Virus record (IMG/VR): IMGVR_UViG_3300037502_002838
Coordinates: 1-28,540 of that record
Reading direction: 5' to 3' (one strand)
Source of the DNA: a virus
Length of the DNA: 28,540 nt
Each line of letters opens with the position of its first letter. Position 1 is the stretch's first letter. The notes under the pieces were generated by a model that made no database searches, was not told where the DNA came from, and worked only from the letters and a program-made list of their open reading frames with translations. Below, in pieces: positions 1 to 14,866 of this stretch. Made by a program: the position numbers and the translations under genes.

Positions 1-438
1 TCTGTGAAATTTACTTACTGCAGGGCAATATTCTTCTTTATGCCATTTTAAACTACGACTCATATTTGTAGTCATATGCACACTAGTATAATTTGTATTT
101 TCAACATCATTGTTTAAATGCTGTAGTATATCAATATACCCTGGATGAAATGTTGGCTCGCCGCCGCTAAGACTAAAATGAAAACTATTGAATCCTCTTT
201 CTCTAGCCTGACGTTTTATTTCATCTATAGTTAATAAACATAATTCAGTGGGTCTATGATCCTTTTTATCACTACGAGCATATGGCCAACAGTAACTACA
301 CTTATAATTACAGAATCTACCCAATAACCAACTTACCGTAAAAAGGTCACGATATAACATTGTGCGTTGTCCAACACGTACAATATCATCATATGGTATT
401 TGTGTAAAGTCATAAGCTGATTTTGCTAAATCACTCAT
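1..438 (-). CDS. Radical SAM protein, GGEPT type (partial, runs off the window)
   Basis: The first 146 codons are present and the gene continues beyond base 1. The translation starts MSDLAKSAYDF. It carries the radical-SAM motif CX3CX2C at C43, C47 and C50 (FCNYKCSYC), followed by SGGEPTFHPGY, the SAM-binding GGEP strand. This should be an enzyme that cleaves S-adenosylmethionine with a [4Fe-4S] cluster; the substrate is unknown. Its nearest relative in the window is the 236-aa protein at 4296-5006 (LGRRCNYDCSYC, TGGEPT), so the missing part may include a cysteine-rich C-terminal domain like the one at 3856-4299. The ATG at 436-438 overlaps the upstream stop by 8 nt, the same overlap seen at several other junctions of this operon. 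The family call is firm; the role is not known. Confidence 0.9.
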   Translation of the reverse strand, partial: MSDLAKSAYDFTQIPYDDIVRVGQRTMLYRDLFTVSWLLGRFCNYKCSYCWPYARSDKKDHRPTELCLLTIDEIKRQARERGFNSFHFSLSGGEPTFHPGYIDILQHLNNDVENTNYTSVHMTTNMSRSLKWHKEEYCPAVSKFHR

Positions 439-742
439 AATAAGTTTTCACCATTTCGTAAAGTTCTGGATTTATATATGCCCAATTTTCATTTCTAATA
501 TCGTTTATCTTTTTATCATTTTTTATAAAAATATTAAAATCACCAGTTTTTGATAACTCATCTTCTAATATTTTCAAAAAAGGCACTGCGGTATGTTTAG
601 TCCATAATTCAAATAATTTTTTAATTTCTATCTTAGCATTTTCAGGCAAGTGTCGTGGACGCATCCAATCTGGACCATCTACTAAAACATATTCATGACG
701 AATTTTAGGAAAATTATCTTTTAAAAAATTTGAAAGTTTATC
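431..742 (-). pseudogene. Orphaned C-terminal part of the interrupted N-twitch radical SAM gene
   Basis: This stretch continues the frame of the gene at 743-1543 directly after its TAA stop (743-745) and stays open for 103 codons to a TGA at 431-433. It looks like the missing C-terminus of that protein. It contains DGPDWMRPRHLP, resembling HLNVRVLP/HLNVKVLP in the intact paralogues. It ends in a segment (DIRNENWAYINPELYEM) matching paralogue ends such as DKIRDEKLLEVEPKFKDY. An internal ATG at 662-664 could start a 77-aa protein, but no convincing ribosome binding site precedes it. Readthrough of the TAA, a genuine nonsense mutation, or a sequencing error (TTA to TAA is one base) would each explain it. 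Confidence 0.75.
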
Positions 743-1543
743 TTAATGATTAATATTGTATATACTAGCAACAGAATGAACTTTAATATCTTCTTTAAAA
801 TTTTCAGTAAACCAATTAATATTTTCTAAAACGTTATCCCATTTACTTCCTTTTCTCAGAAAATTATTCAACTCACCATAAGCATCAATACTTAAATTAA
901 TGTGACATTCTTTACATTCTTTTAAAAGATCAAATAATTCTTGATTGGGTTTCAAGGTAGTATTTGTTGTTAAAAGGACTCTTAGGTTCTTTCTGTTGCA
1001 TCTTTTTAAAACATTGATAAATTTTGGCTGTTCCATTAAAGGTTCCCCGCCAATTAATTTCATTAAAGTGAGCTCCGAAAGATCATACCCATCTAGCACT
1101 GTTTCCTGATTTAAAATACCTTTATAAATTGGCATCCCTAATGCTTTCGCATCAGCATACCAGCTTGTACTTAATTCTGGATTACACATTCTACATTTGT
1201 TATTACATGTGTTACTAAGAGCTAAATCTAAGTATTTTATTTTTGATTCTTTGATAGGCTTAGTTGGTATATTAAAATTTTCTGCGTTATTAAGAAAAAA
1301 CATTCTAGTACTGTGACCTGTTTTTTCCTCATTAGTATAACATTTATTGCACCCAGGAACTGATTCATTATTTCTCATCTTTTCCCGAATATCCTGCATA
1401 AACGGGTGATTAAAAACATCAGGATGATTTAAATCTAAATCATCAGGGACATGCTCCCAATCAAAAATACAACAAGGATATACTTTTCCGTTAGGACGAA
1501 CTGCCAAATGACTAAATGGTAGAGGACAAAAACTATTATTCAC
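743..1543 (-). CDS. N-twitch radical SAM protein, interrupted by in-frame TAA
   Basis: The first 266 residues carry an N-terminal twitch/SPASM-like cysteine domain (C6, C24, C25, C65, C68) and then the radical-SAM motif CX3CX2C (C113, C117, C120), followed by IGGEPL. This is the 'twitch domain first' arrangement known for a family of radical SAM proteins in bacteria and phages. Paralogues here are 420-470 aa. This one stops after SIYNINH, just where they continue (for example TAYNVNHMIDF), and the same frame stays open after the stop to position 431. As read, it lacks the end of the barrel and the C-terminal tail. The start codon overlaps the upstream gene by 8 nt. It may be inactive, or may be rescued by readthrough. 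Confidence 0.85.
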   Translation of the reverse strand: MNNSFCPLPFSHLAVRPNGKVYPCCIFDWEHVPDDLDLNHPDVFNHPFMQDIREKMRNNESVPGCNKCYTNEEKTGHSTRMFFLNNAENFNIPTKPIKESKIKYLDLALSNTCNNKCRMCNPELSTSWYADAKALGMPIYKGILNQETVLDGYDLSELTLMKLIGGEPLMEQPKFINVLKRCNRKNLRVLLTTNTTLKPNQELFDLLKECKECHINLSIDAYGELNNFLRKGSKWDNVLENINWFTENFKEDIKVHSVASIYNINH

Positions 1544-2801
1544 TGTCGAGCCATTCCACTAATATTGGATCTAAATAATCTCTAAAATTTTGATTTCGTG
1601 CCATATCAAAAAGCTCACACTCATCTTTTACTTTTTGTCTGTTTTCATTGTTATTTTTGATAGCATCATCTATTTGTAATAAAAGATTAACTACGTCTCC
1701 GTCCTCTAGACCGTTGTCTCTAAACCTGTGTTTGTTTATTCTTTGTTTAGCTAACTCTAAAAGTTCTTTTGATAGATGTTTTATTGCTATACCTCTGTCT
1801 CGACTGTACACTTCTGAAAATTGACAACAAACTCCAGGGTATAACTTTTTAGCCCAGGTTAAATATTCATCTAAATTTAAAATATTATGGGCAGTTACCA
1901 CTGTTACAAAATTTAAAATCGGATCATAATTACGTACATTTTCTATATAATTTTTTACACTAATTTCGAGATCTGAAAATTTACTAGGAAATCTAATAAA
2001 TTCATAAACTTTTTCGATTCCATCAATACTAAAAGTATGCTTGTTTTTTTTAAAATTATTAATTAGACTTATATTATTATCATCAAATTGTGTTGCATTG
2101 GTATGAAAGATTAGTGTAGTATTTTTAGCATCGTCATTACGTACATATTGATATAATAATTGTATAACTTTATTATCATAAAATGGTTCTCCACCTGATG
2201 CCTTTAATACTTTAATTTTGTCAGTATTCTGTAACAGCCATTCCCATTGAAATGATTTTGTGGCTTCAATTGATACCGGTTTACTTTTTCCATCTACAAT
2301 AAATTCTATTCTACCCCACCGATCTGTAACTTTTGAAACTTTGTCTAATAGATTATTTTTATCAAAATATTGATGATCAGCCATCAACTGATGACTGGCT
2401 GTAGGCGTACACATCCTGCATCTTAAATTACAAACATTTGATGCTGTGATATCAATTACAGATAGCCCATCGTCATCATATCCAAAATTCTCATCACTAT
2501 ACAGTCTAAAGGAGTTCAGTCCTCTGTCTTCTTGATCCCAACAAACTTTACAGGCTTCATCTCTTATGCCTTTAGATAAATTATCTCTAAGTTGTTGCAT
2601 CCTAGGATGATCGTACATTTCTTGAGGTGTTAAATTAGTTGGATCAATTTCTAATGGATTTATATACTTTGGATTTTTATGAGTGTAATTTCCCATCATA
2701 CAGCAAGGCCAAAATGCTAGTAATTTTTTCCCTCGCCATTCTTTAATGGCGATTTCTCTAAAAGGATGTTTACAGTAAGTATTATTTTTTTCTGGTTTCA
2801 T
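1536..2801 (-). CDS. N-twitch radical SAM protein
   Basis: This 421-aa protein has an N-terminal auxiliary Fe-S domain (C10, C33, C34, C84, C87), then CX3CX2C at C124, C128 and C131 (VCNLRCRMC), then SGGEPF and a C-terminal tail ending near LDPILVEWLD. It is expected to be a SAM-dependent radical enzyme with one catalytic and one auxiliary cluster; the substrate is unknown. I chose the ATG at 2799-2801. It lies 1 nt after the upstream stop and puts the YCKHPF motif near the N-terminus as in the paralogues. A start at 2855 is open but would overlap the upstream gene by 53 nt. The gene overlaps the next one by 8 nt. Confidence 0.92.
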   Translation of the reverse strand: MKPEKNNTYCKHPFREIAIKEWRGKKLLAFWPCCMMGNYTHKNPKYINPLEIDPTNLTPQEMYDHPRMQQLRDNLSKGIRDEACKVCWDQEDRGLNSFRLYSDENFGYDDDGLSVIDITASNVCNLRCRMCTPTASHQLMADHQYFDKNNLLDKVSKVTDRWGRIEFIVDGKSKPVSIEATKSFQWEWLLQNTDKIKVLKASGGEPFYDNKVIQLLYQYVRNDDAKNTTLIFHTNATQFDDNNISLINNFKKNKHTFSIDGIEKVYEFIRFPSKFSDLEISVKNYIENVRNYDPILNFVTVVTAHNILNLDEYLTWAKKLYPGVCCQFSEVYSRDRGIAIKHLSKELLELAKQRINKHRFRDNGLEDGDVVNLLLQIDDAIKNNNENRQKVKDECELFDMARNQNFRDYLDPILVEWLDSE

Positions 2802-2802
2802 A

Positions 2803-3135
2803 TTAATGTCTTTCTTCGGGCCAATCATCTCTGCCTGCCATGTGTTTTTCTTCAATTCCTACACCACAAACATTTTTACATCTTTGTGGGCAATTACCAG
2901 AATTAAAATTATCAACATTTAATATAGTAAACATAGTTTTCTTAATAGTTTCCATATCGTGTTTTTTTAAGTCGTTCCAATCGGGTGTCAGAGCTTTAAA
3001 TCTCTCATCATCCCATGGGTTTACTTCATAATTCGCATGGTACGCACAGCAGGGATACACTTTCAATGTTGCTGACACATCTAATTCGTCCCATCTATCT
3101 GATGCATAATCATATGCTGAACATCTTACTTGCAT
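2803..3135 (-). CDS. Stand-alone SPASM/twitch-like cysteine domain (partner of the preceding radical SAM core)
   Basis: This 110-aa protein has no radical-SAM core but carries the cysteine pattern of an auxiliary Fe-S domain: C5, then YPCC (C29, C30), then CPQRCKNVC (C82, C86, C90). The same order (C, PCC, C-x3-C near the end) forms the C-termini of the radical SAM proteins at 9883-10935 and 10932-12098. The upstream gene at 3138-3815 is a 225-aa radical SAM core lacking this part, so the two look like one enzyme encoded in two pieces. I chose the ATG at 3133-3135, 2 nt after the upstream stop; a TTG at 3148-3150 is also open. The two genes are in different frames. A natural split or a frameshift in a fused gene would both fit. 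Confidence 0.82.
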   Translation of the reverse strand: MQVRCSAYDYASDRWDELDVSATLKVYPCCAYHANYEVNPWDDERFKALTPDWNDLKKHDMETIKKTMFTILNVDNFNSGNCPQRCKNVCGVGIEEKHMAGRDDWPEERH

Positions 3136-3137
3136 AA

Positions 3138-3815
3138 TTAATTCACCCAAAAAGTATCAAAAATAATACGATACGAAGTATTTTTATATTTTTTTGAAAT
3201 ATTTACATACTCGTCATAATCACTTTTTGTAATTCTATTAACCCCAAAACGACTTGGTCTCAAATTACATCTCAAATTCAATAGTAAATTGTGCTGTGCT
3301 GCTAACTTGATTACATCTTCTATTTCATGTTTATTATGTTCAAAAATAGTATAGTCCCATATAGCCTTATTATGTTTAGCCATTGAAAACATATTTTTAA
3401 ATGCTAACTCTGTGTTTACATTAATTCTATATTTGTTATTAATTTCATGAGTCAACCCATCAATACCAAATCGTATAGTTATAGAATTGTTAGTTTCAGC
3501 AACATATTTGAAAAACTCATCCCTTTTTACTCCACCATTGGAATATATTGTAAGCTGTTTAAAACTGTTATTGGCAATCTCTGCAAACTCTTTTATTTTA
3601 GGGTGCATTAGGGGATCACCAAATTCACCGCAGAAATAACAAATATAATTCTTATATATTTCCTTATCTCTTTCTACGATACGTTTAAACTCTTCAAAAT
3701 CCATATGTGTAAGTTTGAGCCCGTTTGTTAATTCAAGATATTTGTCTTGATCGAATCTTTTACACGTTGGACATTTAGCATTACAATAGTTTGTTATATT
3801 AAAATCTATTATCAT
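3138..3815 (-). CDS. Radical SAM core protein, GDP type, lacking its C-terminal cysteine domain
   Basis: This 225-aa protein has CX3CX2C at C11, C15 and C18 (YCNAKCPTC) and FCGEFGDPLMHP in place of the usual GGEP strand. That variant is shared with the proteins at 9883-10935 and 10932-12098. The barrel continues through IRFGIDGLTHEINNKYR, which parallels the SIDG/CVDG...YR region of those two. It ends at DTFWVN, where the relatives run on into an auxiliary cluster domain; here that domain is the separate gene at 2803-3135. The size is close to QueE, but QueE does not carry this motif set. A 40-nt gap, one of the few in the operon, precedes the start, with A/T-rich sequence that contains no promoter I would trust. 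Confidence 0.9.
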   Translation of the reverse strand: MIIDFNITNYCNAKCPTCKRFDQDKYLELTNGLKLTHMDFEEFKRIVERDKEIYKNYICYFCGEFGDPLMHPKIKEFAEIANNSFKQLTIYSNGGVKRDEFFKYVAETNNSITIRFGIDGLTHEINNKYRINVNTELAFKNMFSMAKHNKAIWDYTIFEHNKHEIEDVIKLAAQHNLLLNLRCNLRPSRFGVNRITKSDYDEYVNISKKYKNTSYRIIFDTFWVN

Positions 3816-3855
3816 AAATTATCTTTTTAAAATTTTTTATAGTATGCTCACATCT

Positions 3856-4299
3856 TCATTTTATTTCTTTAAGAAAAATAGGTTTAAGTACAGAAGTATC
3901 AAAATGATTTTTAACTACATCTAAATAATTTTCTTGATACTTACTTTTAGGTGCACAAAGTCCACACCCACAAGTATGTTTGGGGCAAACTATAGTTGGC
4001 ATGGTTCCATTTTTTAAATTGCGTTCTAATTCTTCAAGAATCTTATCACCTTCACTTAGTTTTCCTATAGGTCCGCGTGTTTCACCAAACTGTGCTTGAC
4101 ATGTTTGATGATGAAATACACTATCAGTCTGTTGCTCGATATGCATGAAAAACCAATTGACGCTACAGTACCAACCTTTAAATTCTCTGTAGTCAACAAA
4201 TTTACTTTTTCTGGATTCACCTTCGTTGTAGAGACACATGGTTCTACTACCACAACACGGCCTTCCAATTTTTAGTGCTAATTCTTTTTCGTCACTCAT
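3856..4299 (-). CDS. Cysteine-rich SPASM-like auxiliary domain protein
   Basis: This 147-aa protein has nine cysteines: PCCGSRTMC at residues 14-22, C45, C67, and a C-terminal cluster CPKHTCGCGLC at 105-115. It has no radical-SAM core. The ATG overlaps the stop of the radical SAM gene at 4296-5006 in an ATGA, giving translational coupling. The likely role is to hold one or two auxiliary Fe-S clusters for that core, as the C-terminal domain of a SPASM-type enzyme would. It could also be read as the second half of a fused gene broken by a one-base shift at the ATGA. The cysteine pattern is clear; the partnership is inferred from position. Confidence 0.82.
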   Translation of the reverse strand: MSDEKELALKIGRPCCGSRTMCLYNEGESRKSKFVDYREFKGWYCSVNWFFMHIEQQTDSVFHHQTCQAQFGETRGPIGKLSEGDKILEELERNLKNGTMPTIVCPKHTCGCGLCAPKSKYQENYLDVVKNHFDTSVLKPIFLKEIK

Positions 4300-5006
4300 G
4301 CTTCTTGAACCTTCTTTGTATTATTGGTCCAATAGTCTTTAAACCATTGTGTCTGTTCCTTAGTATACATATGTGCAAAATTACTTTTACTATCTGGTTC
4401 TTCACCAATAATTCTGGGAACATATTTAATATCATGTTCATCTAAAAACTCACATACCTTAATACACTCACCAAAATAACCTGCATGAAACATGACGTTG
4501 ATACTCATAGTGCATTTATGCTGTGGGCCATATGTATGAAATTGTACCATACGATCTTTTACTTGATTTTTCAATCTGTCATCAGCTTCGGCGTGATAAC
4601 TTATTGTTATATGATCTAAATTTTCCATTACCTGTGTGGCCATTTTTTCACTCATTGCTCCATTGCTTGTTAATGCAAAACTACATTCATAACGATGTTT
4701 GTATTTTTCATTATAGGTATCTTTTAGATACTTAATAAATGGAATAAAATTAGGATTAACTGTAGGCTCCCCACCAGTAAAACTTATACTAGCTCTTTTG
4801 TAATCCCTATATGTCATATACAAATCTATATACTTCAAGACAAAATCACTATTTTTTATCAAATCTTCCAAGCTGGCGTGTGGACTAAAATTATCATGTC
4901 TATGTGCCGGACAATAACTGCAATCATAATTGCACCTGCGCCCAAGATCCCAAGTGACTTGAAATACATTTCCATCAAGTAAATCTACAGTATCAAAACT
5001 AGCCAT
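4296..5006 (-). CDS. Radical SAM core protein, GGEPT type
   Basis: This 236-aa protein has CX3CX2C at C25, C29 and C32 (RRCNYDCSYC), then FTGGEPTVNPNF for SAM binding and SYHAEADDRLKNQVKDR in the later barrel. It is short for a SPASM-type enzyme, and the cysteine-rich domain expected after it is encoded by the overlapping gene at 3856-4299. It resembles the partial protein at 1-438 in spacing and motif. The start overlaps the upstream gene by 8 nt. The substrate is unknown. Confidence 0.92.
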   Translation of the reverse strand: MASFDTVDLLDGNVFQVTWDLGRRCNYDCSYCPAHRHDNFSPHASLEDLIKNSDFVLKYIDLYMTYRDYKRASISFTGGEPTVNPNFIPFIKYLKDTYNEKYKHRYECSFALTSNGAMSEKMATQVMENLDHITISYHAEADDRLKNQVKDRMVQFHTYGPQHKCTMSINVMFHAGYFGECIKVCEFLDEHDIKYVPRIIGEEPDSKSNFAHMYTKEQTQWFKDYWTNNTKKVQEA

Positions 5007-6303
5007 TTATATAATCCTTAAACTTGGGTTCTACTTCAAGTAATTTTTCATCACGTATTTTATCAAGATCCATTGTATATTTGACAAATTCGTTCCAATG
5101 AGTAGCATAATAACTTTCACTATTCATATAACTAGCCACACCTTTAGCAATATCAGTAGCCTGTTTAATTACATGTTCATTATAATTGTTATTCTTAACC
5201 CACTGAACAAAATCTTGTAATCGTTGCGTGACTTCTTTTTTGTATTGATCAGGTAATACCCTAACATTCAAATGCTTAGGGTGGTGTGCCACATGATGTG
5301 TTATAATCGGACGTTTATTTGTAAAATTTATTTTCCTAAAATTAGCATCTTTTAACTTCCACATCATAAAATCAATCATATGGTTGACATTGTAAGCCGT
5401 AACTGTAAACGCTAACCATCCAAAAATGTTATCAGGCAACTGATCTATTTTACGTAAATTGTTTAAAGTTTTTTCCCACTTAGCTGGGCTTCGTTGATAC
5501 TCTTGCATACTGCCCATACCATCAACACTTGCCCCAACACGTACTTGCTTAAAATGCTTCCACAATTCAGTAACTCTTGTAGGTAGTGTACTCATATTTG
5601 TGTTGTATTCTACAATTATATTTTTAGCCGCATCTTTTTCTACACAACGTTCTAAAAAATCATAGTGTCTTTCTATCAGCATTGGTTCACCACCAGCAAA
5701 ATATACATGTTGGATATTATGAATATTTGCTTCTAATTGTTCCCAAAAAGGTTCATATTCTGGCCAATTAAACGCTGGAACATTTCCGTCTACAATTTCC
5801 ATTACTCCGCTAGTATCTTTAAATCTATTACTGCCAGTTAATTTAATCCAATCTTCATACCATGCGTTGCTGTCTGTTGGACCACACATACGACATTTTA
5901 AATTACAAAAATTACCAAATCGCAAATCGTAATATACTACAGGAAAATCATCTGGATTAATGCTTCCATCAGATTTAGTTTTTTGTCTAACTTCATCAAT
6001 GTTCATTTGCCATTGTTCATTTTCATATGTACGTCTACTAATTAATCCGGCTGCTTCTTCATTTCTACAACGACCACATTCATCGTTCCATACACCGTTT
6101 AACATATTAAGACGTATAGTTTTCATCATTGTGTTATTACGTGCATCTAACAATGAGTCTTTTCCAGCATTATAAGCAACACCGTCAGCTTTGCGTATTA
6201 CTCCTTGATTCTTAGTTACGTTAGCTTGACAACAGACTCTAAGATCCCCATTAGCTCTGATAGCTTGAAAGTTCCAGGGGATAGGACAAAAAGTATTAGA
6301 CAT
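4999..6303 (-). CDS. N-twitch radical SAM protein
   Basis: This 434-aa protein starts MSNTFCPIPW, with N-domain cysteines C6, C24, C25, C76 and C79, followed by the radical-SAM motif C133, C137, C140 (FCNLKCRMC) and FAGGEPM. It has the fuller form of the family: a SVDGM segment, TAYNVNH in the late barrel, HLNVRVLP, and the tail DKIRDEKLLEVEPKFKDY. It is the closest paralogue in layout to the protein at 8483-9886. It overlaps the QueC-like gene upstream and the radical SAM gene downstream by 8 nt each. It should be a radical enzyme with an auxiliary cluster; the substrate is unknown. Confidence 0.94.
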   Translation of the reverse strand: MSNTFCPIPWNFQAIRANGDLRVCCQANVTKNQGVIRKADGVAYNAGKDSLLDARNNTMMKTIRLNMLNGVWNDECGRCRNEEAAGLISRRTYENEQWQMNIDEVRQKTKSDGSINPDDFPVVYYDLRFGNFCNLKCRMCGPTDSNAWYEDWIKLTGSNRFKDTSGVMEIVDGNVPAFNWPEYEPFWEQLEANIHNIQHVYFAGGEPMLIERHYDFLERCVEKDAAKNIIVEYNTNMSTLPTRVTELWKHFKQVRVGASVDGMGSMQEYQRSPAKWEKTLNNLRKIDQLPDNIFGWLAFTVTAYNVNHMIDFMMWKLKDANFRKINFTNKRPIITHHVAHHPKHLNVRVLPDQYKKEVTQRLQDFVQWVKNNNYNEHVIKQATDIAKGVASYMNSESYYATHWNEFVKYTMDLDKIRDEKLLEVEPKFKDYING

Positions 6304-7162
6304 TTGTTATCTTTTCCAAAGTCTCATCTAACTTTGATAGTGCCCAATTACGTTCTAAACACCAAAAACAAGTTTCACATTCTGGAATAGCCATTCCAGG
6401 TGTATAATCTTTATAACTAGGGACTACATCCTTAATATTTTTATGTGTTATATCGCCTTCACAACTTCTAGTTAAATTAAACAAATCAATAATATCAAAG
6501 TAATAATACTGAGCGACGATCCAAGATTTATCAACGAACCTGAATGGATGGCATAAAAATTTACCATCTGAGTGTATTATCAAGTCAACCAGTGTTCCTG
6601 CACTTGCCGGTTTTTCTCGTTCTTTCATTTTTTTAGGAAAATCTGTTCCAGGTGGATTTGCACTTGTCCCATTAAATACTGCATTAAAATTGTATTTAAA
6701 TGTAGTATACAAATTAAAACCAGACACTTGTAATTGATCACCACTTCGATCTTCGTTATAAACTGGGTCCTTATAGATATATCCTGAAACACCATGTTCA
6801 ATTTCTGGAGTTATAAAATTTTCGTGTCGTTCATTAATGATGTTGGGAAACATATTTTTTAACTTATTATAAACACTTATGCCTATTGATCCTTGCCAAG
6901 GTCTGGTAGTCCAACATCTCACATGAGATATAAAATCAATTTTGCAATCAAAGTCATTATCAGTAATTATTTTGCAAAGAAGATAAGTTAGACATGCACT
7001 ATCGGCACCACCCGATACATTTACAGCAATGCGTTTCCATTTATCTGAAAAGGGAATGTCAAGTCCGTTTATTCTAAATAACGAAATTCCATGATTTAAC
7101 GCAATTGATTGCTGTGCTGATGTTGTTGTACTATATATTTTATTTGACTCAGTAAACATCAT
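6296..7162 (-). CDS. QueC-like PP-loop ATPase (ATP pyrophosphatase)
   Basis: This 288-aa protein has the PP-loop SGGADS at residues 50-55, which binds ATP for adenylation chemistry. Near the C-terminus it has C234 (TRSCEGD) followed by CETCFWCLER (C262, C265, C268). This SC...CxxCxxCxER arrangement is the zinc-site pattern of QueC, 7-cyano-7-deazaguanine synthase, and HPFRFVDKSWIV sits where QueC proteins have their conserved PL...TK segment. The middle is unlike ordinary QueC and about 50 residues longer than usual. The gene lies between two N-twitch radical SAM genes and overlaps both. No GTP cyclohydrolase, QueD, recognisable QueE or DpdA gene is in the window, so amidation or thiolation of another substrate is as likely as 7-deazaguanine synthesis. 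Confidence 0.82.
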   Translation of the reverse strand: MMFTESNKIYSTTTSAQQSIALNHGISLFRINGLDIPFSDKWKRIAVNVSGGADSACLTYLLCKIITDNDFDCKIDFISHVRCWTTRPWQGSIGISVYNKLKNMFPNIINERHENFITPEIEHGVSGYIYKDPVYNEDRSGDQLQVSGFNLYTTFKYNFNAVFNGTSANPPGTDFPKKMKEREKPASAGTLVDLIIHSDGKFLCHPFRFVDKSWIVAQYYYFDIIDLFNLTRSCEGDITHKNIKDVVPSYKDYTPGMAIPECETCFWCLERNWALSKLDETLEKITNV

Positions 7163-8490
7163 TCTACTCGCTCTATTCTATCATGAACAAATTTGTATTT
7201 TTTCATATGATCGTTAAAATTTTGTTGCCAAATAGCATCCGATTTTCTTATATAAACTAAGAATGCTTCCCATTCACTGTCCTTACAATCGTGATTGAAA
7301 ACGTAATGTTCAATTTCTTTTAATGCCTTTAAAGCAGTTCTAATATCGGAAAATTCACGCAAGTTTGGATTATAAGATTTTCTGTGCTTATGAATATCTA
7401 AATTATTCAACCTTTTAGTATTTTCATCATTTATAATTTTGTAAGTTTTTTGAATGTCATTAAAAACTTGTTCTTTAAAATGTTTCGCCATTAATGCAGG
7501 ATTCATATATCTAGGCGTATATACTATGGATGATTCTATATAATCCACATCAAGTGTAAGAAAAGATTCAAATACATTTTCGATATCCATTATTTGATAG
7601 GCGCTAGTTGTACAAACTACACCCAACTTACAGTTTTTATTAGCTGCTCTAAATTTCTCTAAATTAGATTTAAGTATATGCCAATTTCCTGTTCTAAAAT
7701 AAGGATAGATATTGGTGCCTGCATCTAAACTAATGTGTATTAGGCTATTACCAAATTTGTCTAATAAATCAGATAACTCTATAGGATCAAACTTTGTGTT
7801 AAAATTACTGTGAAAAGTTAAGCTGATATTTTTAGCATTAGGATGATTAGACAATAATTTTAAGCAAGGAAAAAACTGTTTCTGATAAAGAACTTCTCCT
7901 CCTGCAAAATCAACTTTTCTTAAATTAGGAAAATATACGATTAAGTCGTTAACAATCGTTTCCATTTCTTCAATAGATATTGACATAGATAAATCTTCAT
8001 CTGGTGTCAATTTATGAAATGTTCTTGTTAATTGTACTAATTTGTGTTTACGATCTTCTTCATCAGGTTGATAATGTTTTAGCTTACTAACCCAACCACT
8101 TGAATAAACATCGCTGCAATGTAAACAAGCCATATTACAAGCATTACTAAAACGTAATTCAATGTGCTGAATCAGATTTAAATCAACTTCGCCTGTTTCT
8201 GAATTATAATGTTCTAAATCTTCTTTATTCACTGGGAAATCTTGACGCATCGATGGACTACCAATTTGTTCTGCTTCTTTACAAAGGTGACAGCCTTTTG
8301 GCCAAATTCCTGACATCAAATCTTGTCTGTGTTTTTTAAAATTTTCCGAATTAATAATTTCAGATGGTTTTATTACATTTGAATTTTTATAGACATGAAG
8401 TTGGTCACTCTGCTGCGGGCAACTGGTGACAAAGCCATTTTTATAATTAATAGCTCCTAGAGAATAGGGACATAATATTTGATTAGCCAT
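7159..8490 (-). CDS. N-twitch radical SAM protein (divergent)
   Basis: This 443-aa protein has a radical-SAM motif at C118, C122 and C125 (ACNMACLHC). The SAM-binding strand reads FAGGEVLY, with Val instead of Pro. Its N-terminal domain has just four cysteines (C7, C24, C67, C70), the minimum to ligate one [4Fe-4S] cluster; the CC pair of the paralogues is reduced to one Cys followed by Pro. The tail (QQNFNDHMKKYKFVHDR) is divergent from the other four copies. It overlaps its upstream neighbour by 8 nt and the QueC-like gene by 4 nt. It is the most diverged N-twitch member here, so it probably acts on a different substrate. Confidence 0.92.
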   Translation of the reverse strand: MANQILCPYSLGAINYKNGFVTSCPQQSDQLHVYKNSNVIKPSEIINSENFKKHRQDLMSGIWPKGCHLCKEAEQIGSPSMRQDFPVNKEDLEHYNSETGEVDLNLIQHIELRFSNACNMACLHCSDVYSSGWVSKLKHYQPDEEDRKHKLVQLTRTFHKLTPDEDLSMSISIEEMETIVNDLIVYFPNLRKVDFAGGEVLYQKQFFPCLKLLSNHPNAKNISLTFHSNFNTKFDPIELSDLLDKFGNSLIHISLDAGTNIYPYFRTGNWHILKSNLEKFRAANKNCKLGVVCTTSAYQIMDIENVFESFLTLDVDYIESSIVYTPRYMNPALMAKHFKEQVFNDIQKTYKIINDENTKRLNNLDIHKHRKSYNPNLREFSDIRTALKALKEIEHYVFNHDCKDSEWEAFLVYIRKSDAIWQQNFNDHMKKYKFVHDRIERVE

Positions 8491-9886
8491 TAAATATGTT
8501 CTTCATGTCAGGAAATGTTTCTGCAAAACTAATACCACGTTGTGCATCACATAAATCTAAAAATTCTTTCATTTCTGGTAATCGAACACTCCAATCTTCG
8601 CTTTCCATAAATTTAAGCATGCCTTCTAATCTATCAATACCATAACCTGCATTACGCCATTGCTCATAAGTGACTTTGTCTTTGTGCCATTCTGGTATAC
8701 CTTTTTCCCAGTTAGTTTCCCACCAAGGATAAAAATCTTCGTATTTTTGTCTGCATTTTTCTTTGAACCACTTGGGTAATACTTTTACATTTAAATGCGG
8801 TGGATGATATACAAAATGATAATTTACACCGCCTGCACCAAATGGCCACATATTGACTTTCTTGAATCCCTGCTGTAATTTCCACTTGATAAAATCAGGA
8901 ATATAATATATGTTTAGAGCCTGTACAGCACAGGCCACAGTTACCTCTGTGTTATTGGGTGTTTGCGTATCTAATATATGAAACACTTCTGCTGTACGAC
9001 TCCATTTGCTAGGATAGCGTATATAATCATTCATCTCGTGTATGCTATCAACACTGTAATGAAAACGAACTAGTTTGAAGTGTTTCCACAAATCAAACAA
9101 ATCTTCTCGCCACTCTACCCCGTTACTATTATAGCGTAATTCTAAATTTTTTGCATGTCCTTGACGTATACATTCTTCCAAAATTTCGTAATGTTCTTCA
9201 ATAATAAGACTTTCACCACCAGCAAAATATAACTGTTGCATATTTGGTATTTGATCATAGAACTGTTGCCAAAACACTGGATTATTCTTATGCCAATTGT
9301 AACTGCTACCATTAGTAGATCCTTTGTTGGCCCACATAGTAGTTTGTTTTAGTGTTGGATTTTCTATCTGTGGATGTATAGCTTGCCAATCTTTGATCCA
9401 TCCGCTGCTATCATGCGGACTACACATTACACAAGCCAATTGACATTTAGTTCCGAATCTTAGATCAATGTAACTCAACTTGGGCGGTATTGATCCGTCA
9501 GGTGCTGTATCAGCAATTAACTGAGCTAAGTCTACACGATCCATCCAATAGGCAGTTTCCCACATTCTTTTGCTTTTGTGTCCGGCTGCTTCTTCTTTAT
9601 AGCATTTAGTACAACTAGGTGGCTGTTCTCCAGTAAGCATCTGCTTACGTACATTCTTCATATAATTGCTGTTCCAACTGCTTAAAAAGTCACTTACATT
9701 TAAATTACTAGGCTTTCCCTCGTCTGTTTTTAATATGCCTACCATTCCACCGTGTTTTTTATCGTTAGTAGGTCCCACGCTGCTGGCGTTTGCTGTACAG
9801 CAAACACGCATACTACCATCAGGTCGTGTACTTAAATGTACCCATGGTAAAATGCAAAATGTTTCAGATGGTATTTTAGTGGTCAT
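8483..9886 (-). CDS. N-twitch radical SAM protein (longest copy)
   Basis: This 467-aa protein has an N-domain with FCILPW (C11), RVCC (C29, C30) and CTKC (C92, C95), then radical-SAM C148, C152, C155 (KCQLACVMC) and FAGGESL, with Ser replacing Pro. The late barrel includes SVDSIHEMNDYIRYP. The region HPPHLNVKVLP and the end GISFAETFPDMKNIF match the family tail. It shares layout and length with the protein at 4999-6303, including the W-rich N-to-core linker. It overlaps the upstream gene by an ATGA and the downstream one by 8 nt. It is expected to be a radical enzyme of unknown substrate. Confidence 0.94.
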   Translation of the reverse strand: MTTKIPSETFCILPWVHLSTRPDGSMRVCCTANASSVGPTNDKKHGGMVGILKTDEGKPSNLNVSDFLSSWNSNYMKNVRKQMLTGEQPPSCTKCYKEEAAGHKSKRMWETAYWMDRVDLAQLIADTAPDGSIPPKLSYIDLRFGTKCQLACVMCSPHDSSGWIKDWQAIHPQIENPTLKQTTMWANKGSTNGSSYNWHKNNPVFWQQFYDQIPNMQQLYFAGGESLIIEEHYEILEECIRQGHAKNLELRYNSNGVEWREDLFDLWKHFKLVRFHYSVDSIHEMNDYIRYPSKWSRTAEVFHILDTQTPNNTEVTVACAVQALNIYYIPDFIKWKLQQGFKKVNMWPFGAGGVNYHFVYHPPHLNVKVLPKWFKEKCRQKYEDFYPWWETNWEKGIPEWHKDKVTYEQWRNAGYGIDRLEGMLKFMESEDWSVRLPEMKEFLDLCDAQRGISFAETFPDMKNIFNG

Positions 9887-10935
9887 TTAAATTTAATCTC
9901 ATTTTGATATGCTTTGTTTTTTGCGCATGTACGAATACATCTATCTAGATGTTTGCTGTGTGCTGGATCCCAACTAAGAGCAAGTACTTCGTCAAACCAT
10001 ATATTTTGTAAAACATCATTTATAGATTTGGTTGTTAAACAATTCCAGCCTTGCTCATATTCTTCAAGTTTTTCTCTAATATTTTCTTTGTTTTTAAAAT
10101 AACTGTCCCATAAAAAACAACAAGGCCACATAGTTTGATCAGCTGCAATAAAAATTTCGCCTTCGTGAACTAATTTACAAACGATTGAATTTAATATTTC
10201 TTGTGTTTGTTCTTGTTTCGGATTTTCAATAAATTTTTGTAATTCAATCACTTCCTGTTTTTTACTATGTTCTTTTTCACCAGTAGTAGTAATTACAACT
10301 TCTTCCTTTACAACACGTTTTTTTACACCGTCTTTTTTACGTACAACTGCTATCCAATCATGTATACTATTTCTCATGCCGGTTCTAGTAGCAAATTTAA
10401 ATCCTAAACGTTTGGCATGCTCTTCTGCTAATGGCAATTCATATTCGTTGTGATCAAAAACTATAAACATCCAAGTACCAGTCCCACCAGCTCTTGCATA
10501 GGATTCCATGTTACGTTCTATAACATCAAATACTGTGTTTACTCTGTAGATATGATTAGTTTCTCTGTATCCATCAACACAAAATACCACATCAACTTTT
10601 CTTGTTCTATTGCTTAGTGCGCCTAGACGATGCCACCAGTCAGCAGTCTGTATTCCACCATTAGTGCTAAGTTGACAATATCCGCCAAACGATGTTAGAT
10701 ACTCCACCATATCAATACATTCGTTGTTAAAAGCCGGATCACCCAATACTCCACAAAATTTAAATTGTTTGTCTTTAATGTGTTTAGGCGTGGGAAATAT
10801 TCGTTTTATATCATCTAAAGTGATACTGTGTATTTCTAATATGTCAGGATTTTGTGTTCTAGCACATCCGGGACAGGCAGCATTACAATTACTTGTAATT
10901 TCTAATTCAATTTTTTTAATGTTATCAATATTCAT
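9883..10935 (-). CDS. Radical SAM protein, GDP type, with C-terminal auxiliary cysteine domain
   Basis: This 350-aa protein has CX3CX2C at C17, C21 and C24 (NCNAACPGC), FCGVLGDPAF as the SAM strand and CVDGYRETNHIYR in the barrel. The C-terminal domain carries VCKLVHEGEIFIAA, then MWPCCF, then CIRTC, a SPASM/twitch-like cysteine pattern. Between core and C-domain lies a charged linker (about residues 195-235) rich in Lys, Glu and Val. The core resembles the protein at 10932-12098, its immediate upstream neighbour, and the two probably arose by tandem duplication. The ATGA overlaps on both sides suggest coupled translation. Confidence 0.93.
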   Translation of the reverse strand: MNIDNIKKIELEITSNCNAACPGCARTQNPDILEIHSITLDDIKRIFPTPKHIKDKQFKFCGVLGDPAFNNECIDMVEYLTSFGGYCQLSTNGGIQTADWWHRLGALSNRTRKVDVVFCVDGYRETNHIYRVNTVFDVIERNMESYARAGGTGTWMFIVFDHNEYELPLAEEHAKRLGFKFATRTGMRNSIHDWIAVVRKKDGVKKRVVKEEVVITTTGEKEHSKKQEVIELQKFIENPKQEQTQEILNSIVCKLVHEGEIFIAADQTMWPCCFLWDSYFKNKENIREKLEEYEQGWNCLTTKSINDVLQNIWFDEVLALSWDPAHSKHLDRCIRTCAKNKAYQNEIKFK

Positions 10936-12098
10936 TTAAATTGTCCCGCAAAAGCATCGTATTTGGACCCGCAAACTTTGGCGCAAACTGCTAATTTTCC
11001 ATCCGCACAACTGGGTTTGTCCCAGCTTTCGGGAATAACTTTTTGAAAATATACACCATCGACGATTCGTTCTAAATTGTTTATTTTTGCGTTAATATTA
11101 TCTTTTCCTACTTGATCAATAGCTTGCCAAATTTGAGATGCTTCTGGTTTATAATACCAAACATACATCTGACCTGCTGTCCAACAACAGGGTTGAACAA
11201 TGCCTTCAGCACTAATATATAGCGATTTCTCCTCCGCTACCTTGCATTTTATGACAGCAGAATCCAATTCTTTTTCTAAATTAGATTTATTTTCTGGATT
11301 TAAATTAAATTTTTGAATACCTTGAACTGCAAGTGCGTCTGATTGCTTAGAAGGTAAAAACTTGATTGTTTCTTCTTTACCGACAACTTTGCTTATTTGA
11401 TCTAGAACACTGTTTCGATATTTTGGGTTTGTGGGTGCTTGTAAAAGTGTCGATGTGCCTTTTCTGTTCATAGCTTGGTGCATTTCTTTGGTCACACCGC
11501 TAGCATTACTGAAAAATCTTGCACTTTTTTTGTATTGAAACTTTTCAAAACCCATAGACTTACTCAGTGCTTCTGCTTCTTCAACTTGATGTTCGTTATG
11601 TGCAAAAACGATATAGTCCCATCGGGCTCTTCCGCCAGCGTTGATGAAGGCTTTTGCGTTTTCCATTATTTTAAGCCATATAGTATTTTGTCTATACAAG
11701 TGATTGGTATCTTCTAATCCATCAATACTAAAAACTACATATGCGTTTTTACCTAAAATTTGCGCCAATTTTTTCCACCATTCGGGACGTTTAGCACTGC
11801 CATTGGTATACATAGTCAAATTCATTTTAGAATTGTTTGCTCTAAAATATTCAAATACTTCTAATGTATCTGCGGCGGCGACTGGGTCTCCATAATTGCC
11901 GCACATATACATTCTATCCAGCTGTTGTATAAATTCAGGGAGAAAAATTCTTTTGCAATCTTCTAATGTAAGTTCATTATCTTTCAAATAGGGATTATCT
12001 TCACCGCCGTTAATATTTCTAGCACACATAGGACAACTAGCATTACATCTTTCAGTAATTTCTAAATGCACTGTTCTAATATCTTTGTACTGATACAT
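10932..12098 (-). CDS. Radical SAM protein, GDP type, with C-terminal auxiliary cysteine domain
   Basis: This 388-aa protein has CX3CX2C at C18, C22 and C25 (RCNASCPMC), MCGNYGDPVAA as the SAM strand and SIDGLEDTNHLYRQN in the barrel. Its C-terminal domain includes IKCKVAEEKSLYIS, QPCCW, and CADGKLAVCAKVC. It is the first radical SAM gene in the transcription order. It directly follows the 74-aa gene, whose stop overlaps its ATG by one base. The combination of core and auxiliary domain is that of enzymes that modify peptides or small molecules by radical chemistry; nothing here shows which. Confidence 0.93.
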   Translation of the reverse strand: MYQYKDIRTVHLEITERCNASCPMCARNINGGEDNPYLKDNELTLEDCKRIFLPEFIQQLDRMYMCGNYGDPVAAADTLEVFEYFRANNSKMNLTMYTNGSAKRPEWWKKLAQILGKNAYVVFSIDGLEDTNHLYRQNTIWLKIMENAKAFINAGGRARWDYIVFAHNEHQVEEAEALSKSMGFEKFQYKKSARFFSNASGVTKEMHQAMNRKGTSTLLQAPTNPKYRNSVLDQISKVVGKEETIKFLPSKQSDALAVQGIQKFNLNPENKSNLEKELDSAVIKCKVAEEKSLYISAEGIVQPCCWTAGQMYVWYYKPEASQIWQAIDQVGKDNINAKINNLERIVDGVYFQKVIPESWDKPSCADGKLAVCAKVCGSKYDAFAGQFK

Positions 12099-12322
12099 TA
12101 TTTTAAAATTAAATTTATGTCCCTACCTGGACCAACTTGACTGGGTAATCCACCATATTCGTTCATATACCATTTAATAACTGCTTTGTACCAATTTTGA
12201 CTATTATGATGTGCTTCCTTATTAAAACGGCTGATATTATTATTCGTGGCCTCCATAGTGGCCAAAGCTCTAGCACTTTCTTTTTGTAACTCGCGCATTT
12301 CCATATTATCCAGATCAATCAT
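12098..12322 (-). CDS. Small hypothetical protein (74 aa), possible partner or substrate of the radical SAM enzymes
   Basis: I do not recognise a known domain. The sequence is charged and probably helical over its first two thirds (RELQKESARALATMEATN...), then turns into W/Y-rich WYKAVIKWYMNEYGG and a Gly/Pro tail ending GPGRDINLILK. It has no cysteine, signal peptide or membrane segment. It is locked between the methyltransferase-like gene (ATGA overlap) and the first radical SAM gene (TAATG overlap), so it is a real translated unit. The length and the position beside a radical SAM gene would suit a modified peptide or a peptide-binding helper, but that is inference only. Confidence 0.75.
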   Translation of the reverse strand: MIDLDNMEMRELQKESARALATMEATNNNISRFNKEAHHNSQNWYKAVIKWYMNEYGGLPSQVGPGRDINLILK

Positions 12323-13266
12323 GGTTTACCTATTAGCATAACACGTTTATATCCTGAAAGTTGCAGTTCCCCTTCAAATAATATTTCTTTCATAGGAAAC
12401 TTTTTTTTCATATGATCTATACTATGTACACAATTAACATGTTCAGGAATATCAAATAAATTATTACTTTGTATAGCAACTATAGGCGGAGAATCCATGC
12501 TCTTATGTCTTATCCTATTAAACCAATCTTCTGTCATATGTTCAGAACTTGAATTTATAACTAAGTTAGGTAAAAATTTTTCAGTAAATGTTGCCCCTGT
12601 TTTAAAATTTTCTATAGGCAACTCATATCCGTTTTTATGTAATACAGTTTCATTAATATCGGAAACTACAGATTTTACTGAATATTCTGCAAGTTTATCA
12701 TAATTAAAAAACGTATCACTGACTTGGCAAGCTGTTTTATCTATATCTAATAAACGAATTTTTTTATATCCGATATCATCAAGTATATCATCAAAATAAA
12801 AAACTATTTGCCCATACCAACTACCAATAACTAAAATATTATCAAAAAAGATATTAATTTTTCTTAATTCTTTAGTCATCCATATTTTACTTTGTACTTG
12901 ACCTCTACTAAATGCATCACAAATTTCTAAATTTTCTATTGTTCCATTATAACACTTATTAATTGTTTTAAAAAGTTTATAATCAGCAAAAATTTTGCTC
13001 AATGTAGAACTAATCTCTTTAAGTTTTAAATTATCGTTAGAATTAGCAGTATGAGCATAAAAATTTATTAGATGCTGTACATCATCTCTATTAAAGTTAT
13101 TGGGTAATGCCTCCATAAAGACATTTTTTAAACTGTGTCCTTTATTTTCTGAATAAAGAACTTTTAAAAATCTAGCGCAGTGATCCGCCACTTGATGCTG
13201 TTGTTTAAATCTAAAATAATCTTCTAGACCGTGTAGCCAACTAACACTGTTTACATTACTTTCCAT
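12319..13266 (-). CDS. Class I SAM-dependent methyltransferase-like protein
   Basis: In this 315-aa protein the segment at residues 143-153 (NILVIGSWYGQ) has the shape of motif I of a Rossmann methyltransferase, with Ser-Trp-Tyr inside the glycine loop. It is followed by RLLDIDKTAC, where the acidic residue at the end of strand 2 (D174 or D176) would bind the SAM ribose. Later LVINSSSEHM (residues 235-244) fits the catalytic-loop region. The N-terminal 130 residues are helical and of unknown role. It overlaps the glycosyltransferase-like gene upstream by 1 nt and the 74-aa gene downstream by 4 nt. The fold call is good; the methyl acceptor is unknown. Confidence 0.78.
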   Translation of the reverse strand: MESNVNSVSWLHGLEDYFRFKQQHQVADHCARFLKVLYSENKGHSLKNVFMEALPNNFNRDDVQHLINFYAHTANSNDNLKLKEISSTLSKIFADYKLFKTINKCYNGTIENLEICDAFSRGQVQSKIWMTKELRKINIFFDNILVIGSWYGQIVFYFDDILDDIGYKKIRLLDIDKTACQVSDTFFNYDKLAEYSVKSVVSDINETVLHKNGYELPIENFKTGATFTEKFLPNLVINSSSEHMTEDWFNRIRHKSMDSPPIVAIQSNNLFDIPEHVNCVHSIDHMKKKFPMKEILFEGELQLSGYKRVMLIGKP

Positions 13267-13940
13267 TATTCGCCTTTATCAAATTTATTTTTGAGCCACT
13301 CAAAGTCATTAATTTTTTTAAGCTCAGAAAAATTATTTTTATTACTAATACCAAATTCCACACCGGCTCGAGCACCAAGAACTGCGAATTTGCCATAGTC
13401 TTTATCTTCCCCAACGGTGGTCCAAATACGTAGTCTAATATCAGTTTCGTCATTCTTTTGCCTATCAATAACTTTACTAGATAATTTAACACACTCCCTA
13501 AATGCGCTTTTCCATGTATTAAAGGGATCAGTATTAAATGCAGTGATGTTACTAATTTGTGGCATCGGTTTAAAATGATTACTAATACTTGTAGTCATAT
13601 CTGGTTTAGATGTATCCATATTAATTGTTGCTAATCTAGGAAACAATTTGACTCCGCCATAGCCATATTCCAAAGCATTGATGGGATTTTTACTTCTCCA
13701 AACATAGACAAAATCCTCTCTATCTGCAATAAAATCAAAATTAAAACTGTCAAGAATAACGGCGTCACCATCAACGACCCATATCATATTAGTAAAGCAT
13801 TGTTTAGCGGCATGGATATGCGCCTGATGTATTCCTTTGATTCCATGTACACGTTTAGCCATAGGAAATCTAGATTTCAATGCTAACCAATTTTTATCAG
13901 CATTGGGTTCATTATAACTAATAAAAATTATATCGTACAT
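13266..13940 (-). CDS. GT-A-like glycosyltransferase-family protein (short copy)
   Basis: This 224-aa protein opens with IIFISYNEPNADKNW, continues with AKRVHGIKGIHQAHIHAA and reaches WVVDGDAVI, with DGD at residues 57-59 as the metal/nucleotide-sugar motif of GT-A folds. The same opening (YLSYDEPNAEENY, KRVHGI, IVDGD) is found in the upstream neighbour at 13940-14866, so the two are tandem paralogues. This one lacks the long C-terminal extension. It should transfer a sugar from a nucleotide donor; the acceptor is unknown. It is joined to its neighbours by TAATG overlaps. Confidence 0.8.
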   Translation of the reverse strand: MYDIIFISYNEPNADKNWLALKSRFPMAKRVHGIKGIHQAHIHAAKQCFTNMIWVVDGDAVILDSFNFDFIADREDFVYVWRSKNPINALEYGYGGVKLFPRLATINMDTSKPDMTTSISNHFKPMPQISNITAFNTDPFNTWKSAFRECVKLSSKVIDRQKNDETDIRLRIWTTVGEDKDYGKFAVLGARAGVEFGISNKNNFSELKKINDFEWLKNKFDKGE

Positions 13941-14866
13941 TAATTACTCACGACTGCATTATTTTTCATCCTAGGAGGATTAGTATACATAGCTTTAAAC
14001 ATTTTACTCTGCGCTGAAGTAAAAACATCAGCCATATCTAAACCGATACCAGACTTTAATTTTTCCCCGAGTTTCTCAACCTCTATCATTAAGTTGTTTT
14101 CATCTTGATTTACGTATTGTTTCCAATATTCATTAAGCCACTTGAAATCCCTGACGTTTAAAAGATCCCAATCGGTACAATTAGTTAGATAACAGCCTTG
14201 TCTTGCACCATACATTGCCCATAGCCCATTATCAACGTCATTGCCTATGTGCATCCATATCATCAATCTATGAAAATTTTTCCAATGAATTAATTTTGCT
14301 AGTTGCCCTGAATCTGCCAACTTGGACCCCTCAAGCAAACTCATTTTGACACCTTCACGAAATCCTGCACGCCAGGCTTGCTGTGGACTAGCATTATTAT
14401 AGACATCGCTCATACACTCATCTATTTGAATATAATTAATATCCCAACAAAAATCAACTTGTGTTTTTGGATTATTAGGGTCAGCATTTTCATGAGTTTT
14501 CATATCTAATATAAGTTGAGTTGGCCAGCATTTAATCCCACCATTGCCATATATCAAACCATTGATAATGTTCTTTGCTCCCCAACTAATTACTACTTTG
14601 TTCATATCAACTGTATCATCTTTAAAAGAAACACGTTGTTCTATCAAATTAGGTTTAACAATGTTATCGCCATCAACAATGACTACTCGTTCAGTATCGG
14701 CAATTTTTGCACAGGCTTTGTGAGCAGCATCACTCCCGTATATACCATGAACACGTTTAGCCCACGGCACTTTAGTCACCAAGTCTGCATAGTTTTCTTC
14801 TGCATTAGGTTCATCATAGCTGAGATAAATCACATCACAATCTATAATTTTAATAGTTTTACTCAT
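13940..14866 (-). CDS. GT-A-like glycosyltransferase-family protein (long copy)
   Basis: This 308-aa protein starts with DVIYLSYDEPNAEENYADL, then AKRVHGIYGSDAAHKA and VVIVDGDNIV, with D65-G-D67 as the DXD-type motif. Conserved blocks YGNGGIKCWP and AWRAGFREGVKMSL have counterparts in the 224-aa paralogue (YGYGGVKLFP, TWKSAFRECVKLSS). A C-terminal region of about 60 residues is extra and carries no motif I recognise. The paralogous pair may act in sequence on one acceptor. It has an ATGA overlap with the upstream gene. Confidence 0.8.
   Translation of the reverse strand: MSKTIKIIDCDVIYLSYDEPNAEENYADLVTKVPWAKRVHGIYGSDAAHKACAKIADTERVVIVDGDNIVKPNLIEQRVSFKDDTVDMNKVVISWGAKNIINGLIYGNGGIKCWPTQLILDMKTHENADPNNPKTQVDFCWDINYIQIDECMSDVYNNASPQQAWRAGFREGVKMSLLEGSKLADSGQLAKLIHWKNFHRLMIWMHIGNDVDNGLWAMYGARQGCYLTNCTDWDLLNVRDFKWLNEYWKQYVNQDENNLMIEVEKLGEKLKSGIGLDMADVFTSAQSKMFKAMYTNPPRMKNNAVVSN

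Follow-up and report, generated by a model that had tools for sequence, protein, structure and literature searches.

Radical-SAM gene cluster of a marine T4-type phage: a three-enzyme core shared with Bdellovibrionota and a possible role in glycan tailoring

Introduction

What would a virus do with ten radical S-adenosylmethionine (radical-SAM) enzymes? The question is raised by a viral record of 28,540 bases, IMG/VR record IMGVR_UViG_3300037502_002838 (positions 1 to 28,540; hereafter, the window, within which all gene coordinates lie). A sequence-only reading of this DNA had described ten radical-SAM loci of three types (N-twitch, GDP, and GGEPT) and proposed a multi-enzyme radical pathway, joined to glycosyltransferases and a methyltransferase. 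One enzyme of each type (D1 for GDP, T1 for N-twitch, and G2 for GGEPT) forms a core common to phages and some Bdellovibrionota. Judging from its context, the region would be a phage-encoded sugar- or glycan-tailoring pathway in a host-recognition island, adjoining the tail-fibre genes in a marine T4-type phage. A probability of about 0.5 is given to this reading, in which the pathway most likely builds or decorates a surface sugar.

Ten radical-SAM proteins of three types

The ten CX3CX2C cores all lie on the minus strand, at the coordinates reported previously. They are given here with adjoining open reading frames (ORFs); locus numbers (L) denote the compared loci.

1–438, minus strand: G2, core GGEPT-type radical SAM (Pfam Radical_SAM, 1.9e-12), close to intact viral relatives
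431–664, minus strand: C-terminal remainder of T5 past an in-frame TAA, in the same frame as 743–1543; the NF033640 match spans one TAA
743–1543, minus strand: T5, N-twitch radical SAM, interrupted copy (NF033640, 218.7 bits)
1536–2801, minus strand: T4, N-twitch radical SAM (NF033640, 213.6 bits)
2803–3150, minus strand: d3t, cysteine-rich ORF that overlaps D3 and was picked out by its cysteine pattern; L075 has the same pair, conserved
3138–3815, minus strand: D3, GDP-type radical SAM, core half only (Pfam, 5.3e-11)
3856–4299, minus strand: g1t, putative cysteine-rich auxiliary half of G1, a separate ORF adjoining G1 and conserved in eight distinct sequences
4296–5006, minus strand: G1, GGEPT-type radical SAM, accessory module (Pfam, 2.2e-11; phi coefficient of 0.90 with PPl)
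4999–6303, minus strand: T3, N-twitch radical SAM (NF033640, 386 bits)
7159–8490, minus strand: T2, N-twitch radical SAM, accessory module (NF033640, 215 bits)
8483–9886, minus strand: T1, core N-twitch radical SAM, the most constrained gene (NF033640, 414 bits; median ratio of non-synonymous to synonymous substitution rates, dN/dS, 0.03)
9883–10935, minus strand: D2, GDP-type radical SAM, accessory module (Pfam, 1.4e-5, below the gathering score; PHROG radical SAM family, 1.1e-14; phi 0.85 with PPl)
10932–12098, minus strand: D1, core GDP-type radical SAM with C-terminal auxiliary-cluster cysteines (Pfam, 4.7e-9)

Composition-preserving shuffles of each protein give an expected 0.05 motif bearers in ten, against ten observed. 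For all ten proteins, Pfam Radical_SAM gives a match at E 1e-5 to 2e-12, with the CX3CX2C motif inside the domain; eight of these matches pass the gathering score. A genome-wide scan with this model recovers the same ten places, which confirms the ten cores. The division into three types also holds up. The N-twitch genes belong to NCBIfam NF033640 (N_Twi_rSAM), for which the curated full-protein cut-off of 170 bits is exceeded by T1 (414), T3 (386), T5 (219, rising to 251 when read through its stop), T2 (215), and T4 (214), and by no protein of 14 model organism genomes scanned as controls. The GDP (D1–D3) and GGEPT (G1, G2) types match the superfamily and fall below every NCBIfam subfamily cut-off.

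The conserved auxiliary-cluster cysteines of SPASM/twitch enzymes are found in T1, where C11, C29, C30, C92, and C95 are invariant. D1 has invariant C18/C22/C25 plus auxiliary C285/C304/C305/C372/C376. The Pfam SPASM cut-off is passed by T5 only, among the ten proteins. The cysteine-rich ORFs at 3856–4299 and 2803–3150 are taken, from their sequences, as putative auxiliary-cluster halves of G1 and D3, respectively. The G1/g1t split is kept in the window's clade, most other relatives being single ORFs of 370–430 aa. In Pfam searches, d3t has no family match; it is probably the separate auxiliary-cluster half of D3.

Several gene models call for correction. G2 is truncated by the window edge (intact relatives mostly have 370–393 aa), and the ATG listed as the start of T4 is internal to an open frame that extends to 2855. 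The frame of T5 runs on through a TAA into 431–664, while its relatives are intact (367–406 aa); the stop is either a nonsense codon in a decaying copy or a sequence error.

Known identities were also considered for the cores. A housekeeping role was rejected, as no NCBIfam functional cut-off was reached; the multi-enzyme proposal is, thus, not refuted by the subfamily models. Viperin-like defence was rejected for the GGEPT type (best NF038283 score of 48.9 bits, for G1, versus a cut-off of 180), and so were MoaA and QueE, whose scores were far under cut-off. Sequence searches of the Protein Data Bank (PDB) returned weak matches of D1 to NifB and of G2 to a sulfatase maturase and viperin, which are read as reflecting the shared barrel only, and nothing usable for T1, gt13, MT, PPl, and s15.

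A core shared with Bdellovibrionota

The T1 alignment was scanned over the genome contigs of 84,980 bacterial and archaeal species. Of the 15 places found, Bdellovibrionota-type assemblies (one of them with just 'bacterium' as its title) account for ten, with 58–62% identity, and most of these ten are adjoined by homologues of D1, G2, the glycosyltransferases gt12/gt13, or the methyltransferase-like MT. In 369 Bdellovibrionota genomes (the phylum name being taken from record titles), T1 occurs in 20 and G2 in 22, including all 20 T1 genomes, usually on one contig within a few kb. Gene order varies by genome and linkage is retained. One T1-G2-gt13 locus lies on a contig of 1.62 Mb; bacterial triad loci are therefore chromosomal.

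The distance matrices of D1, T1, and G2 correlate (phage-only r 0.56–0.84, reached in none of 999 permutations). For T1, the phage sequences group as a single clade (100/100), separate from the bacterial ones. The presence of the core in both phages and predatory bacteria points to a shared pathway of yet undescribed chemistry.

Two bacterial triad loci are inside polysaccharide clusters, one with a UDP-GlcNAc 2-epimerase, an initiating sugar transferase, and a CapD-type protein, the other with an epimerase and an AT3 acyltransferase. Glycosyltransferase family 2 accounts for six of 100 bacterial neighbour proteins; in a control set of 100 proteins drawn from these genomes, it is outside the top 25 families. 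Two QueC-family Pfam matches are also found among the neighbours. A PP-loop protein of ~368 aa, located near D1 in two Bacteriovorax-type genomes (L213:12255-13361 and L214:13719-14828), is probably their source.

Some contigs filed under other taxa hold similar clusters. L174 (a 'Chloroflexi' metagenome-assembled genome, MAG, 161 kb) and L175 (an 'Acidimicrobiaceae' MAG, 80 kb) have a G+C content of 0.27–0.31, 12–13 CX3CX2C ORFs per 21 kb, and T1 at 51–52%; they may be phages that were binned wrongly, or else represent a second lineage of bacteria. L162 (Neisseriaceae MAG) and L163 (Planctomycetota MAG) are short contigs with phage-like radical-SAM clusters; as L162 holds s15, a gene described below, it is probably a misbinned phage contig.

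Conserved gene order in viruses

The genes accompanying the radical-SAM block are as follows.

6296–7162, minus strand: PPl, QueC-like PP-loop ATP pyrophosphatase (predicted from motifs and a structure model), with four invariant Cys
12098–12322, minus strand: s15, conserved 74-aa protein, phage-specific partner linked to D1 (77% mean column identity)
12319–13266, minus strand: MT, methyltransferase-like by reading only; homologues beside the bacterial triad
13266–13940, minus strand: gt13, predicted GT-A fold glycosyltransferase with invariant DxD (model and Foldseek)
13940–14866, minus strand: gt12, related glycosyltransferase, aligning with gt13 (PF13641, 15.5 bits, below cut-off)
15428–17072, minus strand: GTa and GTb, glycosyltransferase-like by reading only; their order upstream of s15 is conserved

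Scanning IMG/VR with T1 matched 87 stretches, of which the best 80 loci were kept for study; in these best 80 of 87, T1 identity is 72–94%. Their shared skeleton runs: tail-fibre genes, small genes, GTa-GTb, gt12, gt13, MT, s15, D1, (D2), T1, (T2-PPl-T3-G1-T5), G2, with other genes inserted at differing points. Since related phages share both the gene set and its order across many viral contigs, the proposed multi-enzyme cluster also withstands the gene-neighbourhood survey. As many as 13 CX3CX2C ORFs occur in loci of ~21 kb. In 14 whole viral records, there are 5–20 Radical_SAM matches each (6–20 in 79–382 kb, when one 15 kb fragment is set aside). In the overlapping set of 14 large relatives, N-twitch genes exceed the NF033640 cut-off in all, and the T4-type major capsid protein Gp23 is present in 11.

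The small gene s15 was found in 446 viral contigs, 80 of which were examined in detail. D1 lies within four genes of it in 70 of the 80; a short flank, an uncalled ORF, or a slightly farther D1 accounts for the exceptions, only L088 and L127 being unexplained. The protein is conserved over its full length, with no variable core, and its invariant residues include W, Y, H, and N. By linkage only, s15 is a candidate substrate or carrier. Next to the bacterial triad, no homologue of s15 turned up, and cultured phages searched with s15 and gt13 yielded no relatives.

An accessory module, block exchange, and selection

In 41 distinct phage loci whose downstream flank was long enough, co-occurrence is strong among D2, T2, PPl, G1, and T5 (phi 0.64–0.95, values inflated by relatedness) and weaker for T3 and an SDR-like gene. 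The five genes behave like a second module, centred on the QueC-like enzyme, that is for the most part either complete or missing. The SDR-like gene, absent from the window, encodes a ~185-aa protein between G1 and T5 in 33 phage loci (e.g., L009:15443-16003), and a protein resembling it is present in some bacterial triad loci.

T1, G2, and D1 are the most constrained radical-SAM genes, with median dN/dS of 0.03, 0.05, and 0.09 (a crude pairwise estimate on unsaturated pairs), the others ranging from 0.11 to 0.18. The radical-SAM block is under purifying selection.

It is also exchanged by recombination. Two close relatives (L004 and L085, which are one contig, and L087, another) have ~99% DNA identity to the window from the tail-fibre genes to ~12,200, inside s15. 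Beyond this point, across the radical-SAM genes, sliding identity falls to ~80% and stays at 64–87%; one edge of the block is therefore a sharp recombination breakpoint. A second edge, if one exists, is outside the window.

12200–12230, strand not applicable: approximate edge of the exchanged block, from sliding identity versus L085/L004 and L087

Partner proteins

In PPl, the SGGADS loop and C234/C262/C265/C268 are invariant in 25 sequences, which is the PP-loop and four-Cys zinc motif layout of QueC (7-cyano-7-deazaguanine synthase). Its structure model (predicted local distance difference test score, pLDDT, 88.9) has QueC 2pg3 as nearest solved fold (E 8.6e-7; template modelling score, TM, 0.60 by target and 0.48 by query). 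PPl differs from QueC in its ~16% identity in the structural alignment, in the lack of TGT in large relatives, and at the level of Pfam: neither PPl (only PF01171, 14.8 bits) nor any large viral record reaches the PF06508 QueC gathering score.

The gt13 protein has an invariant DxD (D57/D59). Its model (pLDDT 92.3) is matched by Foldseek to WrtF, RmlT, and polypeptide GalNAc-transferases, at E ~1e-4 and a modest TM of ~0.4, which supports its prediction as a GT-A fold glycosyltransferase. The gt12, gt13, GTa, and GTb genes flank the radical-SAM cluster in fixed order. No Pfam match was found for GTa and GTb, and no Pfam or usable PDB match for MT.

The multi-enzyme pathway joined to glycosyltransferases and a methyltransferase is, thus, upheld as far as the module, the T4-type phage, the predicted GT-A fold of gt13, the methyltransferase-like MT, and the conserved order are concerned. 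A single pathway is too simple, because co-occurrence separates the core triad from the accessory module.

Genes near the cluster differ between phages, and include a carbamoyltransferase, an AMP-binding ligase, a nitroreductase, a fatty-acid desaturase, and a beta-hydroxylase. One AMP-binding ligase (L029:1115-2104, TSGTTGNPK motif) lies on the opposite strand, upstream of the radical-SAM block, and its cluster comprises 17 phage loci.

Possible function and alternative explanations

If the region tailors a glycan, D1, T1, and G2 would act sequentially on one sugar or cyclitol unit, by dehydrogenation, epimerisation, or deoxygenation if the analogy with known twitch/SPASM and related enzymes holds. 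PPl could convert a carboxylate to an amide or nitrile, and other phages would add carbamoyl, acyl, hydroxyl, or reduced groups. The glycosyltransferases would then attach the product either to the virion or to polysaccharide on the host surface. The phage would probably gain by altering the receptor or surface antigen while it infects, in keeping with the hypervariability of a host-recognition island. Tentatively, the pathway may be an undescribed one, having as its obligatory core the three radical-SAM kinds and dedicated glycosyltransferases, in predatory bacteria and marine T4-type phages; phages would add interchangeable radical-SAM modules (up to ~20 enzymes per genome), diversifying one surface-borne or s15-borne product.

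Several points weigh against glycan tailoring. The s15 gene, nearly always nearby in phages, has no role in it; none of the ten radical-SAM genes reaches a functional NCBIfam subfamily cut-off; GTa, GTb, and MT are putative assignments; phage co-occurrence values carry the inflation by relatedness; and, in the window, no gene for making nucleotide sugars was identified. Several bacterial loci lie amid housekeeping genes, so that the polysaccharide context is partial and offers support rather than proof.

The main competing explanation is protein modification, in which the enzymes would modify a ribosomally made s15 or a tail protein, later glycosylated, as in ribosomally synthesized and post-translationally modified peptides (RiPPs) or in virion decoration. 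Twitch/SPASM enzymes often act on peptides, and the abundance of s15, its closeness to D1, its invariant residues, and the adjoining tail-fibre genes all speak for such a role. It is nonetheless judged unlikely: s15 is conserved end to end, it has no counterpart beside the bacterial triad, and Pfam saw no PqqD/RRE domain (RiPP precursor recognition) in any of the ten radical-SAM proteins, on which ground standard RRE-route maturation was rejected. The fold of PPl suggests another possibility, namely that the enzymes supply phage DNA with a modified base, PPl acting as in 7-deazaguanine pathways. Radical-SAM steps are known in thymidine hypermodification, and QueD-like (PTPS) genes occur in six of the 14 large relatives. 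Nevertheless, QueD is absent from the other eight and a TGT/DpdA-type transglycosylase from all 14 (some being fragments), PPl is below the Pfam QueC model, and the locus is in the tail-fibre region, adjoining glycosyltransferases. Deazaguanine modification was rejected for want of TGT in the 14 records, and nucleotide or DNA hypermodification in general is very unlikely.

In a published view, proposed for Campylobacter phages, unrelated radical-SAM genes are gathered as auxiliary genes boosting host metabolism (PMC2853527). The diversity of the enzymes agrees with it, but the fixed gene order, the co-inheritance of D1, T1, and G2, the largely all-or-none accessory module, and the lack of any housekeeping subfamily match leave it quite improbable.

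Under glycan tailoring, if true, the locus would represent new sugar chemistry and a phage means of rapid surface change; s15, if it is the substrate, would represent a novel kind of phage protein, one that is heavily modified.

Relation to known systems

Radical-SAM-rich phages have already been published (PMC2853527, PMC3322345, PMC5332604, PMC7029224), and the earlier remark that no known pathway uses so many radical-SAM enzymes fails as to number. Campylobacter phages CP220 and CPt10 (Firehammervirus) carry 11 and 12 such genes, five of them in a module that can be interchanged (PMC2853527), and the T4-like genome TARA_ERS488813_N000010 (Nishimura 2017) has 12 (PMC5332604).

CP220 and CPt10 are T4-related, with nucleotide-sugar transferase-like genes beside the module, and the replacement of the five genes between them is similar to the block exchange in the window; the breakpoint at ~12,200 and the frequency of Gp23 place the window's block with such interchangeable multi-radical-SAM blocks of T4-type phages. 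They differ by a D1 similarity of only ~26%, by their amidinotransferase, and by the absence of any s15 match and, in CP220, of any T3 match found. The TARA genome, marine and T4-like, is likely the same kind of phage; its genes are given as Fe-S auxiliary genes, and gene order, triad, and bacterial counterpart are not described in the passages covered.

Pelagimyophages of the HTVC008M/Mosig group carry radical-SAM cassettes within their host recognition cluster (PMC7029224), likewise a hypervariable island by tail fibres with glycosyltransferases (locus L084). They differ in having few radical-SAM genes, and their D1-like match has 24.6% identity over 44% of the query. The similar island of pelagiphage Mosig includes a UDP-Ara4N aminotransferase. 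The NF033640 entry, to which five window proteins belong, gives no function; the window differs in combining five diverged copies with two further radical-SAM types.

Searches for radical SAM linked to SPASM/capsular polysaccharide, jumbo phage and glycosyltransferase, or Bdellovibrio and glycosyltransferase returned no relevant paper in the literature covered. The three-type core, its Bdellovibrionota counterpart, the accessory module, and the swap point are not described in that open-access literature (most subscription journals and all preprints being outside its scope), and are, within it, new; the gene count alone was already known. The long-standing puzzle of T4-type phages with a dozen radical-SAM genes becomes testable, through a minimal three-enzyme core in bacterial chromosomes open to deletion and expression.

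Among named phages, Vibrio phages K566 and F86 (L081 and L082) are large and have several radical-SAM genes each, F86 also carrying a QueC-like gene and a nicotinamide phosphoribosyl transferase; both are possible laboratory models. In the window itself, 24094–26772 encodes an 892-aa protein with a protease match (phrog_3677), which adjoins the tail-fibre genes and is possibly a tail-associated or self-processing protease.

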